Shown: one piece after another, positions 31,237 to 39,201 of the stretch
Position numbering within the stretch: the stretch's first letter is position 1
Layout: each line of letters begins with the position of its first letter
Assembly: GCF_007750855.1 (NCBI RefSeq)
Contig: NZ_CP036291.1
Coordinates: forward strand, 1,364,001-1,428,000
Direction of reading: 5' to 3'
DNA from: Pirellulimonas nuda
GTDB taxonomy: Bacteria; Planctomycetota; Planctomycetia; Pirellulales; Lacipirellulaceae
Length of the DNA stretch: 64,000 nucleotides
Translations under genes and position numbers: made by a program
Notes under the pieces: model-generated
Told to the model about the DNA's origin: nothing
The model's database searches: none
What the model saw: the letters and a program-made list of their open reading frames with translations, nothing else

Positions 31237-31839
31237 TCAGCCGACCTGGCGGATGACGCCGGTAACGATCCCCAGCACCTGCACGTTCCGCACGTAGATC
31301 GGCTCCATTGAGGAGTTGGCCGGCTGCAGGCGGATGCGGCCCGCTTCGGGGAACCAGTACTTGAGCGTCGCCTCGCCGTCGTCGGTGATCGCGGCGACGA
31401 TATCTCCCTTCGTGGCGCTTTTGGTCTTCTTGCAGATCACGATGTCGCCGTCGGCGATCTGGGCCTCGATCATCGAGTCGCCACGCACCCGCAGGGCGAA
31501 ATGGCTCCTCTTTTTCGGGAAGAGCTCGTCGAAATCGATCCGCTCGGCCTGCTCGATCGCTTCGCTGAGGCTGCCGGCGGCGATCTGGCCGACCAGGGGG
31601 ATGCCGTCGTCCGCGCGCGCCTCGCCGGTGAGCTGGATGGCCCGCGACATGTTCGGCTCGCGGGTGATCAGCCCCTTCTTTTCGAGCGCCTTGAGGTGGC
31701 ACATCACGCCGTTGGGCGAATTGATCTCAAAGAACTCGCCGATCTCGCGGACCGTCGGGCCGTAGCCTCTTTTTTCGATCTTTTCGCGGATGAAATCGAG
31801 CACCTCGCGTTGCCGCGGGGTTAGTTGGTCGAGTGACAT
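31237..31839 (-). CDS. lexA: LexA repressor
   Basis: A 200-residue SOS repressor that self-cleaves when stimulated by RecA filaments. The winged helix (residues 1-70) includes LTPRQREVLDFIREKIEKRG and SPNGVMCHLKALEKKG. The cleavage site is A88-G89 in GQIAAGS. The catalytic dyad is S122 (RGDSM) and K160 (EATLKYW). ATG 31839 is the family start; the frame adds five unlikely residues upstream. It is divergent from a protease gene across 165 bases; autoregulation is expected, but I could not identify the operator. Confidence 0.96.
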   Translation of the reverse strand: MSLDQLTPRQREVLDFIREKIEKRGYGPTVREIGEFFEINSPNGVMCHLKALEKKGLITREPNMSRAIQLTGEARADDGIPLVGQIAAGSLSEAIEQAERIDFDELFPKKRSHFALRVRGDSMIEAQIADGDIVICKKTKSATKGDIVAAITDDGEATLKYWFPEAGRIRLQPANSSMEPIYVRNVQVLGIVTGVIRQVG

Positions 31840-32004
31840 AGCGGTGCGCCCCACGCGCAGTCGGGCGAACTATTAGGGGGCTGAGAACGTATACCAATGA
31901 CAAATGTCGAACGCCGAAATGGAAGTTGTCGCCGGATCGGCTACAATGCAGCGTCGGCTCCTCTACTAGAGTGTTCATATACGTCCGTACACGGTCAAGA
32001 GCAG

Positions 32005-33135
32005 ATGGGGAAATTTGTGCGCAATTCCTTCCTGATCGGTTTCACGACCCTAAGCGTCGTCGCCATCGCGACCACGCTGCCGGCCCAGCCCGCGACCCAG
32101 CAGCCCCCCGCGGCCGAAGCGCGGCCCACGGCGGGCGCTTCTCCGCTGCGGGTCGATCTTCCCGCCGAGGTGCAGGCGGTGCTCGACAAGCGCTACCCCG
32201 AGAACGTGGACGACCTCCGCACGCTCGAAGGGCAGGTCAAGAGGGTGCTGCAGGCGGGCCGCAAGGCCACGGTGGCCGTGACGCTCGGCGGCGCCGCCGG
32301 CAGCGGCGTGATTGTGAGCCCCGACGGCATCGTGCTGACCGCCGGCCACGTGGTCGGCGAGCCGGGCCGAAGGGTGACGTTCTACTTCGCCGACGGCAAG
32401 CGGGCCCGCGGCGTGTCGTTGGGGATGAACGAGTCGATCGACTCCGGCATGATGCGGATCACCGATCCCGGCCCCTGGCCCTACGCAGAGCTGGCCGAGG
32501 CGGACTCGACCAAGATAGGCGACTGGGTGTTGGCCATCGGCCAACCGAACGGCTTCTTCAAGGACCGCGCCCCCCCCGTGCGGCTGGGGCGGGTGCTGTA
32601 CCAGAGCGATGAGGTGATCAACACCGACTGCACGCTGGTCGGCGGAGACTCGGGGGGACCGCTGTTCAACCTGCGTGGGCAGGTGATCGGCATCCACAGC
32701 CGGATCGGGCCGCGCCTGACCGCGAATATGCACGTGCCAATCTCGACCTACCACGTCACCTGGGACCGCCTGGCGGACAGCGAGGCCTGGGGCGGCCGAC
32801 GGCGTCGGGGGGGGCGAGAGATGCCCGCCGAGGGCCGCCCGCTGCTGGGCGTCGCCGGAAACCCAGAGGGGGTTGATTGCACCATCACGCAGGTCTTCCC
32901 CGGGCTCCCGGCCGCGCGTGCCGGGGTGAAAGTGGGCGACGTGGTGCAGAAGTTCGACGACGCCGAGGTGGCCTCGTTCGCCGACCTCAGCCGGCTGGTG
33001 CTCACCAAACGCCCGCGCGACAAGGTGAAGCTGCGGCTAGTGCGTGATGGAGAAGAGCTAGAGATCGAGATCGCGCTGGCGGGGGTAACCGGCGATTTCC
33101 CCGGCGCCCCGTCGCCCAGCGACGAGAAGGAGTAA
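32005..33135 (+). CDS. secreted trypsin-like (HtrA-type) serine protease with C-terminal PDZ domain
   Basis: A 376-residue exported protease. The signal peptide ends near LPAQPA (about 28). The protease domain (about 75-275) has the full triad: H115 (LTAGHVV), D146 (ESIDSGMM) and S216 (GGDSGGPL). A Gly/Arg-rich linker leads to one PDZ domain (about 287-365; LLGVAGNPEG, AARAGVKVGDVVQKFDD). It probably degrades or senses misfolded envelope proteins. A -10-like TACAAT lies at 31942-31947. It is followed on the same strand, 74 bases on, by a protease-like protein with a rearranged and mutated active site. Confidence 0.93.
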   Translation: MGKFVRNSFLIGFTTLSVVAIATTLPAQPATQQPPAAEARPTAGASPLRVDLPAEVQAVLDKRYPENVDDLRTLEGQVKRVLQAGRKATVAVTLGGAAGSGVIVSPDGIVLTAGHVVGEPGRRVTFYFADGKRARGVSLGMNESIDSGMMRITDPGPWPYAELAEADSTKIGDWVLAIGQPNGFFKDRAPPVRLGRVLYQSDEVINTDCTLVGGDSGGPLFNLRGQVIGIHSRIGPRLTANMHVPISTYHVTWDRLADSEAWGGRRRRGGREMPAEGRPLLGVAGNPEGVDCTITQVFPGLPAARAGVKVGDVVQKFDDAEVASFADLSRLVLTKRPRDKVKLRLVRDGEELEIEIALAGVTGDFPGAPSPSDEKE

Positions 33136-33209: not shown

Positions 33210-34307
33210 ATGCGACACGCTCATCCGGTCCTTATCGCCCTGCTGCTCTTGGGGGCGTCGCAGACGCTCGCCCAAGAGGCGGCCCCCGACTCGCTCGAGC
33301 AGGCACGCGAGGCGTTCCGCAACGCCTTCGACCGGATGTGGTCGCCCCCCGGCTACCGCCTGAAGAACGGCCCGCACGTGCGGGCGGCCTTCCGAGACGT
33401 GGTCGAGGGGACGCAGCCCTCGGTGGTGCGTGTGAAGAACGACGGCAAAGACGCCGCGCTGGGGGGCGTGGTGGGGCCAGACGGCTGGGTGCTGACCAAG
33501 TCGAGCCAGCTCACCGGCCGGGTGACCTGCCGGCTGAGCGACGGCCGAGAGCTGGACGCCAAGATTGTTGGCGTCGATCGCAAGTACGACGTGGCGATGC
33601 TCAAGGTCGACGCCAAGGACCTGAAGTCGCTTGAACTCGCCGACCACGACATCAGCGAAGAGGGGCGCTGGGTGGCGACGCTGGGCCAGGGGGACGACCC
33701 GATCGCGGTGGGCGTGGTCAGCGTTTCGGCGCGGCGGATCCCGCACCAGGCCGGCATCCTGGGCGTGCGGCTGGAAGAGGCGCCTGGGGGCGGGGCGTTG
33801 ATCGACACCGTCTACGCCGAGTCGGGCGCCGCCAACGCCGGCATCGAGGCGGGTGACATCATTGTCTCCATCAACCAAGAGAAGACCGCCGATCGCGCGG
33901 CGCTCATCCGCACCGTGCAAAAGTACACCCCCGGCGACGTGATCGAGATCGATCTGAAGCGGGGCGACGAGCGGCTTACCGTCCGCGCCCGCCTAGCGGG
34001 TCAAAACAAAGAGATGCCGCTGGACCGCGGTCAGATCCAGAACAACCTTGGGGGCGAGCTCAGCGATCGGCGGTTCGGCTTTCCCACCGCCGTCCAGCAC
34101 GACACGGTGATCAACCCGAAGGACTGTGGCGGGCCGATCGTCGACCTCGACGGCGCCGTGGTGGGCTTCAACGCGGCCCGGGCGGGCCGGACGGAGAGCT
34201 ACGCGATCCCGTCGTACGTGGTCCGTGGGCTGCTGTTCGAGCTGATGAGCGGCCGGCTGACCCCCGTGACCCTCGAGGGGGACCAGCACACCGCCTTGGC
34301 GGAATGA
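33210..34307 (+). CDS. degenerate HtrA-like protein with PDZ inserted in the protease domain and Ser-to-Cys site
   Basis: A 365-residue exported protein (signal peptide ends near TLAQEA). Residues about 65-175 match the N-terminal lobe of a trypsin-like protease (GVVGPDGWVLTKSSQL, DRKYDVAMLKVD, WVATLGQGDDPIAVGVVS). The His of the usual TxxHV is absent (KSSQ), while D127 is kept. A PDZ domain then occupies about 181-263 (ILGVRLEEAPGGG, AANAGIEAGDIIVSINQEK). The second lobe resumes at about 287-345 with INPKDCGGPIVDLDGAVVG, aligning with the canonical INPGNSGGPL but with C306 for Ser. ATG 33210 opens the signal peptide; a TTG at 33192 is possible. Proteolysis is unlikely; a binding or redox role is inferred. 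Confidence 0.85.
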   Translation: MRHAHPVLIALLLLGASQTLAQEAAPDSLEQAREAFRNAFDRMWSPPGYRLKNGPHVRAAFRDVVEGTQPSVVRVKNDGKDAALGGVVGPDGWVLTKSSQLTGRVTCRLSDGRELDAKIVGVDRKYDVAMLKVDAKDLKSLELADHDISEEGRWVATLGQGDDPIAVGVVSVSARRIPHQAGILGVRLEEAPGGGALIDTVYAESGAANAGIEAGDIIVSINQEKTADRAALIRTVQKYTPGDVIEIDLKRGDERLTVRARLAGQNKEMPLDRGQIQNNLGGELSDRRFGFPTAVQHDTVINPKDCGGPIVDLDGAVVGFNAARAGRTESYAIPSYVVRGLLFELMSGRLTPVTLEGDQHTALAE

Positions 34308-34930: not shown

Positions 34931-35425
34931 ATGTTCTCAATTTGGAAGATTGCCGCGGTGGCCGGCCTGGCCGCCGTAGGCGGCTTTGCGATCCGCGCAT
35001 CGCAGGCCACCTCGACCCCGGTTGCCGCAGACGCACCGACGAGCTGCTGTTGCAAAGGCGTTTGCGAGTGCGACGCCTGCGATTGCGACGGCCAGTGCTG
35101 CACCGACTGCGACTGCCCGGAGTGTGACTGCTCCGGCTGCGCGTGCGGCGAAAGCTGCAACGCCCAGGCTTGCTGCGCCAAGTGCGGCGACGACTGCGCG
35201 TGCGAGGTCTGCTCGTGCGACGGCTCGGCCGCGGCCTGCTGCCCGGAAGGGGCTGCTTGCAGCGTCAACGCGGCTGCTTGCTGCTCCGGCGGCGGATCGT
35301 GCTGTGCTAGCAGCGAAACCGTAGCGACCGCGGCGGCGTGCAAGTGCGGCGCCGACTGCAAGTGCGACCCCTGCACCTGCGAGAAGCAGACCGGAGAGGT
35401 CGCCGAGTCGGTCGCTAGCCGCTAG
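34931..35425 (+). CDS. exported metallothionein-like protein, 22% cysteine
   Basis: A 164-residue protein with a signal or anchor segment (WKIAAVAGLAAVGGFAIRA) followed by about 130 residues containing 36 cysteines in CC, CxC and CxxC spacings (for example CECDACDCDGQCC). Acidic residues alternate with cysteine in the first half; the last part (CKCGADCKCDPCTC) is similar. No aromatic core is present, as in metallothioneins, but the protein appears to be exported, unlike classical bacterial metallothioneins. AAGGA lies 8 bases before the ATG. A strong terminator follows 33 bases after the stop. Confidence 0.8.
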   Translation: MFSIWKIAAVAGLAAVGGFAIRASQATSTPVAADAPTSCCCKGVCECDACDCDGQCCTDCDCPECDCSGCACGESCNAQACCAKCGDDCACEVCSCDGSAAACCPEGAACSVNAAACCSGGGSCCASSETVATAAACKCGADCKCDPCTCEKQTGEVAESVASR

Positions 35426-35841: not shown

Positions 35842-38800
35842 GTGACACCGCTCCGCTACGTCCTCGCCAGCCTGTGGGCCTACCGCCGATCGCACCTGGC
35901 CGTTGCGGCCGGGGTCGCGGTGGCGACCGCTGTGTTAACCGGCGCGCTCTTGGTGGGCGACTCGGTACGCGGCAGCCTACGCGACCTCACGCTCCAACGG
36001 CTGGGAACGATCGACGTCGCGTGGACGGCGCCCCGGCCTTTCTTGGATACGCTGGCCTCCGAGCCCGGCTTCGCCCAGCGGTACGCACGCACGGCGCCGG
36101 CCCTGCGCTTGCAGGCTTCGGCCACGAGCGACACCCAGGGGGGCCCGCGGCGGGCGCACCGCATCGCCGTGATGGGGGTCACGCCGGCGTTCTGGGCGTT
36201 CGGCCCCGAGGCGCCTCAGGGACCGGCCGACGGCGAGGTCTGGCTAACCGCCGCGCTCGCCGAGGAACTGGGCGTCGCCGCCGGCGGCGAGGCGCTGCTG
36301 CGGCTCCCCAAACCAAGCGCGCTGCCGTCCGAGAGCACGCTCGGCGAGAAGGTGGACACCACCGTTGGGTTGCGGCTAGAAGTGGCGCGCGTGCTCCCGG
36401 ACGTCGGCCTCGCGCGGTTCGACATCGCCCCGTCGCAACGCCCGCCGCGCACCGCGTTTGTTTCGCTGAAGCAACTGCAGAAGACGCTCGACCTGCCCGG
36501 CCGCGCGAACCTGCTGCTGGCGACGCAGCAAAAGGACGCCCCGAGTCTCCCCGCTGAGGTGCATCCCCGGCTCGCCAACTACGGCGTCGCTGTCGAGTCG
36601 GTGGCCTCCGGCAGCGACACGCTGGTGCAGATCGAGTCGGACGCGCTGGTCCTGCCCGCCGCCGTGGTGGCCGCCGCCCAGCAGACGCTGGCCGACCGGC
36701 CGCTACAGCCGGTTGTCACCTACCTGGCCAACCGCATCGAATTAGGGGAGGGCGCGGCCCGCAAGAGCGTGCCGTACTCGATCGTCGTCGGCGTCGATCC
36801 CACCGAAGCGTTGGGGCCGCTACGCGGCGCCGCGGGGGAGCCGTTCGCGATCGCCGACAACCAGGTGGTGCTCAACGATTGGACCGCCGAGGCGCTCGGC
36901 GCCAAGGTGGGCGACACGGTGCGGCTGGTCTACTACCAGCCGGAGAGCACGCACGGCGAGCTCGTCGAGGCGGCGCCCGTTGCGCTGAGGGTCACCGCAA
37001 TCGTGCCGCTAGAACAAGACGGCAAGCCGACCGCCGCGGCCGACCGTCGGCTCACCCCCGCGCTGCCGGGCGTGACCGACAGCCGCTCGATCGGCGAGTG
37101 GGACGTGCCGTTCGAGCTGGTCGAACCGATCGGCCGCGCCGACGAAGACTACTGGGAGCAGCACGGGCCGACCCCCAAGGCGTTCGTGTCCCACGCCCTG
37201 GCAGCCAAGCTGTGGTCGAGCCGCTGGGGGACCCAGAGCCTGCTGCGCACCACGGGGGCGTCCGATGCGATTGGCGCGGCCCTGGCCGGGCGGCTCGACC
37301 CGGCGGACCTTGGCCTGGTAGAGCTGCCGCTCCGCCGGCAGGGGCTCCACGCGGCCGGGGGCACGACGCCGTTCGACGTGCTGTTCGTCGCGTTCAGCAT
37401 GTTCCTGATCGCCGCCGCGGTGATGTTGATCGCGTTGCTGATGCGGCTGGGGGTCGAGGCGCGCTCACGCGAGGCGGGCCTGCTGTCGGCGGTCGGGCTG
37501 CGGGCCGGCACGATCCGCCGGTTGCTGCTCCGCGAGCTCTCCCTCGCCGCGGCCGCCGGCGCGGTGGTCGGGGCGGCGCTGGGCGTGGCGTACTGCTGGC
37601 TGATGGTGTGGGGGCTGACGACCGTCTGGGTCGACGCCATCGCGGCGCCATTCCTGGCGATGCACGTCTCGCCACGCAGCCTGGCGATCGGCCTGATCGG
37701 CGGCTTCCTGGTCGCCTGGCTGGCCGCCAGGCTCACGCTGCGCGGCGTGCTGAAGCAGCCCGCCAAGGCGGCACTGGCGGGCGATCCGGCGGTCCCCTCG
37801 GGCGCGAGCGCCGGCTGGTCCCCTATCGTCGCGGTCGCCGGGTTCGTCGGCGCCGTGGCGGCCGCTGCCGTCGGCGTCTTCGGCGGCGAGGGCGCCCGCG
37901 CGGGGGCGTTCTTCGGCGCGGGCGCGCTGGCGCTAGTCGCCGCGCTCGCGGGCGTGCAGTGGACGCTGGCCCGCGCGGGGCGCGACTCACGCACGACCGC
38001 GCGGTTCGGGCTGGGGTCGCTCGCGCTGCGGAACGTGGCCCGCCGCCCCGGCAGGACCCTGCTCACAATGGGGCTCACCGCGTCGGCGACGTTCCTGCTG
38101 CTGGCCGTGAGCGCGTTCCGCCTGCCCCCCAGCGAGGCGGGGACCGGGGGCTTCGATCTGATCGCCCAAGCGAGCGCCGCCATCCACTTCGACCTCGCGA
38201 CGCTCGCGGGCCGCCAGGAGCTGGGCTTTGGCCGGAACGACGACGCGCTGTTCGAGGGCGCCACGATCGAGGGGCTCCGCGCCCACGACGGCGAGGACGC
38301 AAGTTGCCTGAACCTCTACCAGACCCGGCAGCCACGCGTGCTGGGCGTGCCGGCGTCGCTGGGCGACGCAAGCAAGTTTGCTTGGGCCGGCGTCCGCGCG
38401 GGTTACGAAGATAAGCCGTGGGACGCGCTCACGGTCCGGCTCGGCCCCGACGCCGAGGGAGCGCCGGTCACCCCCGTGGTGCTCGACCTCAACACGGCCC
38501 TCTACAGCCTGAAGCTCTACGGCGGCGTCGGCCAGCGATTTGTCATCGAAGACCAAACCGGCCGACCGGCCACGCTGGAAGTCGTCGGCCTGCTGAACAA
38601 CAGCATGCTGCAGGGCGACCTGCTGATCGGCGAGCAGGAGATGGTGCGGCTCTTCCCCGACTCCGGCGGCGACCGGCTGCTGCTGATCCGCTTGCCGGCA
38701 GACGCGCCCCCCGGCCGCGCCGCCGATCTTGCCGCCGCGCTCGAAGACCGCCTAGCCGACTACGGCGTCGACGTTGAGCCCGCGCTCGATCGGCTGGCCG

Positions 38801-39201
38801 GGTTCCTCGCCGTGCAGAATACTTACCTCTCCACCTTCCAATCGCTCGGCGGGCTGGGGCTGTTGCTGGGGGTCGTCGGCCTGGCGGTGGTGCAGCTGCG
38901 CAACCTGATCGAGCGTCGCGGCGAGGTGGCCCTGCTCCGCGCCGAGGGTTTTAGCCACGCCCGCGTGAACCGCTTGGTGCTGCTCGAGAACCTGCTGCTG
39001 GTGGGCGGCGGGCTGCTGGTCGGCGCCGCCGCGGCGCTGGTGGCGCTCGCCCCGCAACTGCTCTCCCGCGACGCCCGTTTCCCCGCGCTCGAGGCGCTCG
39101 CGCTGGTGGCGATTGTCGGCGCGGCGGGGATCGTGGCGGCGCAGCTCGCGACCCGCGGACCCCTACGGGCGGCCATCTTCCCTGCGCTACGCGGGGAGTG
39201 A
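35842..39201 (+). CDS. large FtsX-type ABC transporter permease
   Basis: A 1119-residue membrane protein with the MacB/LolC-type layout: N-terminal TM (about 17-38), a large extracytoplasmic domain (about 40-500), an FtsX domain with three TM segments (about 510-640), more TM segments, a second extracytoplasmic domain, and a second FtsX domain (about 990-1110, SLGGLGLLLGVVGLAVVQL and RGEVALLRAEGFSHARVNR). Such permeases move lipoproteins, lipids or peptides or act as mechanotransmitters, driven by a separate ATPase. No ATPase gene is adjacent. The start is GTG 35842 with GGAAAG about 6 bases upstream. Confidence 0.9.
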   Translation: MTPLRYVLASLWAYRRSHLAVAAGVAVATAVLTGALLVGDSVRGSLRDLTLQRLGTIDVAWTAPRPFLDTLASEPGFAQRYARTAPALRLQASATSDTQGGPRRAHRIAVMGVTPAFWAFGPEAPQGPADGEVWLTAALAEELGVAAGGEALLRLPKPSALPSESTLGEKVDTTVGLRLEVARVLPDVGLARFDIAPSQRPPRTAFVSLKQLQKTLDLPGRANLLLATQQKDAPSLPAEVHPRLANYGVAVESVASGSDTLVQIESDALVLPAAVVAAAQQTLADRPLQPVVTYLANRIELGEGAARKSVPYSIVVGVDPTEALGPLRGAAGEPFAIADNQVVLNDWTAEALGAKVGDTVRLVYYQPESTHGELVEAAPVALRVTAIVPLEQDGKPTAAADRRLTPALPGVTDSRSIGEWDVPFELVEPIGRADEDYWEQHGPTPKAFVSHALAAKLWSSRWGTQSLLRTTGASDAIGAALAGRLDPADLGLVELPLRRQGLHAAGGTTPFDVLFVAFSMFLIAAAVMLIALLMRLGVEARSREAGLLSAVGLRAGTIRRLLLRELSLAAAAGAVVGAALGVAYCWLMVWGLTTVWVDAIAAPFLAMHVSPRSLAIGLIGGFLVAWLAARLTLRGVLKQPAKAALAGDPAVPSGASAGWSPIVAVAGFVGAVAAAAVGVFGGEGARAGAFFGAGALALVAALAGVQWTLARAGRDSRTTARFGLGSLALRNVARRPGRTLLTMGLTASATFLLLAVSAFRLPPSEAGTGGFDLIAQASAAIHFDLATLAGRQELGFGRNDDALFEGATIEGLRAHDGEDASCLNLYQTRQPRVLGVPASLGDASKFAWAGVRAGYEDKPWDALTVRLGPDAEGAPVTPVVLDLNTALYSLKLYGGVGQRFVIEDQTGRPATLEVVGLLNNSMLQGDLLIGEQEMVRLFPDSGGDRLLLIRLPADAPPGRAADLAAALEDRLADYGVDVEPALDRLAGFLAVQNTYLSTFQSLGGLGLLLGVVGLAVVQLRNLIERRGEVALLRAEGFSHARVNRLVLLENLLLVGGGLLVGAAAALVALAPQLLSRDARFPALEALALVAIVGAAGIVAAQLATRGPLRAAIFPALRGE

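Follow-up and report, generated by a model that had tools for sequence, protein, structure and literature searches.

In the studied HtrA proteases, the sensor (a PDZ domain) and the catalytic site are carried on one chain, and the relay from the PDZ domain to loop L3 to the active site is therefore hard to dissect. Signals in this relay pass from PDZ1 to L3 and on to loops LD and L1, and L3 touches loop LD of the adjacent protease (PMC3575494). A second described system is the magnetosome pair MamE and MamO, in which MamE-dependent proteolysis requires MamO but not the triad of MamO (PMC4794232); the pair thus shows that an HtrA protease can depend for its activity on a trypsin-fold protein that is itself inactive.

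We analyzed a window of 64,000 nucleotides from Pirellulimonas nuda (the whole stretch of DNA under study), in which the gene at 33210..34307 on the + strand encodes a 365-residue protein, a predicted pseudoprotease with a PDZ domain at the position of loop L3. The Pfam search revealed Trypsin_2 at residues 85-166, exceeding the Pfam cut-off, together with a further Trypsin_2 stretch, and PDZ_2 at residues 182-260. The only PDZ domain (residues 181-264) was located inside the protease domain, and none was present C-terminal to the protease fold. The protein scored 124 bits with TIGR02037, the NCBIfam model of the Do family, for which the cut-off is 416.2, and the defence-system models gave no match to it. 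By inspection of the sequence, the N terminus (residues 1-21, ...LIALLLLGASQTLAQ; 33210..33272, + strand) resembled a signal peptide. The following components were assigned behind it on the same strand: a first β-barrel of six predicted strands at residues 66-133 (33405..33608), with pLDDT values of 96-98 in the AlphaFold2 model and conserved key residues (K97 and D127, both invariant, and S99, which aligns with the catalytic His); the first two strands of the second barrel at residues 150-177 (33657..33740), from the AlphaFold2 strands and the splice test; and the PDZ domain in place of loop L3 (33750..34001), from the Pfam match and a deletion scan, with a GILGV-type carboxylate-binding loop whose G185 was found in 79/80 members of the family. 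A linker at residues 265-288 (34002..34073) contained a short helix in the AlphaFold2 model and an LSxRR motif conserved in the alignment. Strands 3-6 of the second barrel and a C-terminal helix at residues 289-347 (34074..34250), placed by the model and by conservation, carried H297, D298, C306-G-G-P, N321, R324 and R327.

The phmmer searches revealed that residues up to 181 and residues from 294 onwards aligned to DegP-like and MucD proteases, in which the two segments were only a few residues apart. Upon splicing out residues 179-287, we found one contiguous DegP-like match of 91 bits, in place of the split match of 58 and 17 bits given by the unspliced protein, and the closest relatives of solved structure, which were DegP-like, MucD and DegQ proteins, were likewise matched contiguously once the PDZ domain was removed. 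Sliding removals of 90-120 residues along the protein gave the best score with about 178-290 removed. Splicing raised the score in 80/80 members, with a median gain of 36 bits and a contiguous single match in 78. The AlphaFold2 model, for which 30 natural relatives were the input, had a mean pLDDT of 87.7 and a pTM of 0.78 and contained 6+6 strands in trypsin order, with six strands by the end of the D127 segment, two before the PDZ domain and four after it; the blocks WVATLGQG and VGVVSVSA (about residues 152-175) matched the first two strands of the second barrel. From the matches and the model, the predicted interruption falls after strand 2 of this barrel and before strand 3, in a loop that we take to be loop L3 in the HtrA nomenclature, following DegP. 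The confidence of the model, the order of its strands and the result of splicing together suggest that both lobes pack as one trypsin fold. Structural comparison with the PDB gave sequential alignments that fitted either barrel plus the PDZ domain out of register, with an rmsd of 10-24 Å, and these were set aside as uninformative on the insertion.

The initial annotation had described a PDZ domain that interrupts a trypsin-like domain and lies between its two lobes. The reading frame and the interruption agreed with the Pfam matches and with 30 relatives aligned end to end, which places the arrangement far beyond chance, but the site did not agree, as the domain was found in loop L3 within the second barrel. 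Because the PDZ domain is inside this barrel and not between the lobes, the proposed hinge that would move both lobes is not the mechanism one would naturally expect. In HtrA proteases the PDZ domain is known to communicate with the active site by way of loop L3, and an insertion there points to signalling to the partner.

Homologue searches indicated that the PDZ-inserted pseudoprotease is a conserved protein family and not the rearrangement of one gene. At least 80 distinct members were collected from Planctomycetota and Verrucomicrobiota, with a median pairwise identity of 0.34, and all 80 showed the same order of first barrel, start of the second barrel, PDZ domain and remainder of the second barrel, with an insertion length of 105-131 residues. 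The insertion, whose conservation the initial annotation had proposed to check, was thus conserved, and the order was not peculiar to the target gene. In a whole-genome search, the 30 end-to-end relatives, which had the same order, came from approximately half of 60 related genomes. When 84,980 species genomes were scanned with conserved peptides as seeds, a design that may have passed over rare members in other groups, more members appeared in Planctomycetota and Verrucomicrobiota among the matches listed; the next-best among these were ordinary proteobacterial HtrAs with the ordinary order. Among evenly sampled genomes with a completeness of 90% or more, strong matches occurred in at least 58 of 280 Planctomycetota genomes and at least 16 of 194 from the verrucomicrobial-side phylum, counts that are restricted to strong matches and that diverged members escape. 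We also observed that one genome (G350, the genome of L072) contained five members, on contigs C75, C33, C14 (two) and C21; the two on C14 were about 2 kb apart, so that tandem duplication is one way in which the pair can multiply. Six members (L022, L027, L043, L044, L046 and L051) had a C-terminal extension of approximately 70-120 residues past the protease fold.

The gene directly upstream (31897..33135, + strand) encodes an HtrA-like protease of ordinary order, with Trypsin_2 at residues 135-266 and a C-terminal PDZ_2 at residues 316-394. Its triad residues were His in TAGHVV, Asp in SIDSGMM and Ser in GGDSGGP, in columns conserved among 79 partners, and its likely start, judged by eye, is the internal ATG at 32005 (+ strand), directly before a signal-peptide-like segment. 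The pseudoprotease gene begins 75 bases past the stop codon of this partner on the same strand, and a simple promoter/terminator scan of the + strand found no terminator-like site between both genes. The pairing was nearly strict: of the 78 members with upstream sequence, 57 had an HtrA of ordinary order encoded directly before them on the same strand and 19 were joined to one in a single ORF, 76 in all, a count in which L074 was assigned as adjacent by hand and related genomes were taken as separate, the members nonetheless being diverse. The two remaining loci showed no partner within 5.8 kb (L052) or in 1.4 kb of upstream sequence (L030). As a second set, 20 loci were drawn from 17 genomes in the samples of Planctomycetota and the verrucomicrobial-side phylum, and the pair was present in 20/20 (18 separate and two fused), which brought the natural fusions of active HtrA and pseudoprotease to 21, with 19 in the first set and two in the second. 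The partnership with the upstream protease that the initial annotation had tentatively put forward was therefore recovered in all but two loci of the first set and in every locus of the second. The partners retained an intact triad (His 77/77, Asp 79/79 and Ser 79/79). They also shared a Cys in the motif T-D-C-x-x-x-G-G-D-S-G-G-P, seven residues before the catalytic Ser, a position that corresponds to HDT in the pseudoprotease.

Each of the two partner families had a single origin, and fusion occurred repeatedly. In a quick maximum-likelihood tree with SH-aLRT as the single support measure, the members formed one clade (99) and the partners another (98), and the fused or separate state changed at least 6 times. 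The model of fusion L024 had a pTM of 0.74 over 566 residues, which only suggests a defined arrangement of its two halves. According to Pfam, the active half contained no PDZ domain in fusions L024, L034, L039, L065, L075 and L084, and the same was true of the separate partners L118, L121 and L077; in these cases the inserted PDZ domain of the pseudoprotease was retained as the sole one of the pair.

Beyond the pair, other neighbour families reached 6 of 54 loci at most, and three large clusters of apparently conserved neighbours were rejected because they were antisense shadow ORFs of the pair. In the window, a LexA repressor with LexA_DNA_bind and Peptidase_S24 (31237-31854, - strand) is divergent from the HtrA pair. 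Downstream on the + strand are a small, apparently exported protein whose body is extremely rich in Cys (CCCKGVCECDACDCDGQCC...; 34931-35425), which had no Pfam match and is possibly metallothionein-like, and a large ABC-type permease of 1119 residues in which FtsX and MacB_PCD were each matched twice (35842-39201).

Taken together, we consider it somewhat probable that the exported, HtrA-derived pseudoprotease serves as the sensory or regulatory subunit of a two-component HtrA machine with its active partner. Its trypsin fold would be retained as a scaffold without catalysis, and the inserted PDZ domain, in which the carboxylate-binding loop seems intact, takes the place of loop L3. The protein would most likely assemble with the active HtrA encoded upstream, either in mixed oligomers or, in the fusions, within one chain. 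Peptide binding by the inserted PDZ domain would then be relayed by way of the L3 position to the activation loops of the adjacent active subunit, and proteolysis by that subunit would be switched on or off, presumably in the service of envelope protein quality control. By analogy with the HtrA relay, a PDZ domain that sits in L3 of an inactive subunit, with an active HtrA as its regular partner, is well suited to relaying ligand binding to that neighbour. Two points speak against a regulatory subunit: most partners (68/76) keep a PDZ domain of their own and could be self-sufficient, and L052 and L030 showed no partner in the upstream stretches given above. In addition, pairing and fusion alone do not establish the direction of regulation or allostery. 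As for the broader proposal, that Planctomycetota and Verrucomicrobiota have a two-component HtrA system of their own whose regulatory PDZ domain was moved from the protease into L3 of a dead partner, so that sensing and catalysis are divided between subunits and switching occurs in trans, we find belief and doubt evenly balanced.

The main alternative assigns the pseudoprotease to substrate delivery or chaperoning: its PDZ domain and dead cleft would catch the exposed C termini of envelope proteins that have misfolded and pass them to the partner without allosteric switching. The retained carboxylate loop (G185 in 79/80) is compatible with this, fusion and pairing fit it equally well, and the loss of the partner's own PDZ domain where an inserted one is present is as expected for shared tethering. 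However, in all members the PDZ domain sat at the relay position of L3 and not at a free terminus, and simple tethering would need no such site; we regard delivery as rather unlikely.

The catalytic positions bear on the remaining explanations. The position of His-57 aligned with S99 within KSSQ, that of Ser-195 with C306 (KDCGGP), and the triad Asp with D127. Across the 80 members the His position was occupied by Ser in 63, Thr in 11, Asp in three and other residues in three, and His was found in 0/80; D127, K97 and R327 were present in 80/80 and R324 in 79/80. C306 (codon at 34125..34127, + strand) was conserved in 75/80, with Met in three, Ile in one and Val in one (L061, L067, L069, L070 and L080); these five retained His297 and Lys97. 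H297 was also found in 75/80, with Thr in five other members, which retained Cys. Further Met or Ile versions of the Cys306 position occurred in the second set of 20 loci. The view of the initial annotation that this is a pseudoprotease, with the Asp kept and Cys at the Ser site, is supported by these columns, and in the KSS segment about which it asked, an invariant Lys stands close to a position that never holds His. Because His was absent from all members and Ser was replaced by Cys, Met, Ile or Val, catalysis by the pseudoprotease is very unlikely. Arginines just past strand 5, at the site of the S1-pocket loop of ordinary HtrA, suggest that the cleft was rebuilt.

An active enzyme of a new type, with Cys306 as the nucleophile and His297 or Lys97 as the base, would account for the strong conservation of these residues and D127 and for the retained CGGP of the oxyanion loop. 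It is nevertheless highly improbable: Cys and His297 were lost independently, in five members each and with extra Met or Ile versions in the second set, which counts against a Cys-His catalytic pair, and position 297, nine residues ahead of the nucleophile on the strand that bears QTD in ordinary HtrA, is no place for a catalytic base. We consider it just as improbable that the conserved polar cluster of H297, D298, C306, R324 and R327 is a metal or redox sensor. MamO, a pseudoprotease that binds transition metals, offers a precedent (PMC4794232), and both His and Cys are highly conserved close to the former active site; however, the two were lost independently across lineages, no second invariant Cys or His was found in the 80 members, and the Cys-rich protein downstream in the window had no conserved counterpart in the other loci. 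A functionless relic of tandem duplication, or an assembly or annotation artefact, would fit the missing catalytic residues and the adjoining homologous gene, but this reading, to which we attach practically no weight, is refuted by the conservation of the insertion and about 20 near-invariant residues over 80 members of 0.34 median pairwise identity in two phyla, and by the presence of the gene in complete single-contig genomes (G000, G013 and G052).

If the pseudoprotease is a regulatory subunit, its interest lies in the division of tasks. Sensor and catalysis are seemingly split here, with the sensor placed within the relay loop and with some active partners lacking a PDZ domain, so that cross-subunit activation of HtrA by a PDZ ligand, which has long been debated, becomes directly testable. 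The pair would also be an envelope protease system that is widespread in two phyla whose cell envelopes are unusual and that has apparently not been described before.

In the sequence libraries and open-access full text that we searched, no published description of the PDZ-in-L3 architecture was found. The HtrA/DegP/DegQ (Do) family, MEROPS S1C, shares the Trypsin_2 fold, the PDZ domain and the export signal with the pseudoprotease. In contrast, the PDZ domain is C-terminal in HtrA and inside the second barrel at L3 here, and the His-Asp-Ser triad of HtrA is reduced to Asp, with His lost and Ser changed to Cys. HtrA proteins form trimers by way of their first barrel; the pseudoprotease was modelled as a single chain. 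ClpP/ClpR and the chloroplast Deg5/Deg8, a mixed Deg complex, are hetero-oligomeric proteases with an inactive subunit. They follow the same principle of mixed or paired protease subunits, but the Clp fold differs, the PDZ arrangement of Deg5/Deg8 is ordinary and, to our knowledge, neither has a PDZ domain in L3. In the magnetosome pair, a dead trypsin fold is likewise encoded with an active HtrA. Unlike the pseudoprotease described here, MamO has no PDZ insertion and has its catalytic residues in place; it is fused to a TauE transporter domain, no counterpart of which was found in the pseudoprotease by Pfam search, and it uses surface histidines to bind metal. The family described here forms a clade of its own, belongs to non-magnetotactic phyla and has no link to magnetosome genes. 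By analogy of a dead and an active trypsin fold encoded together, MamE/MamO is the closest precedent for the pair.
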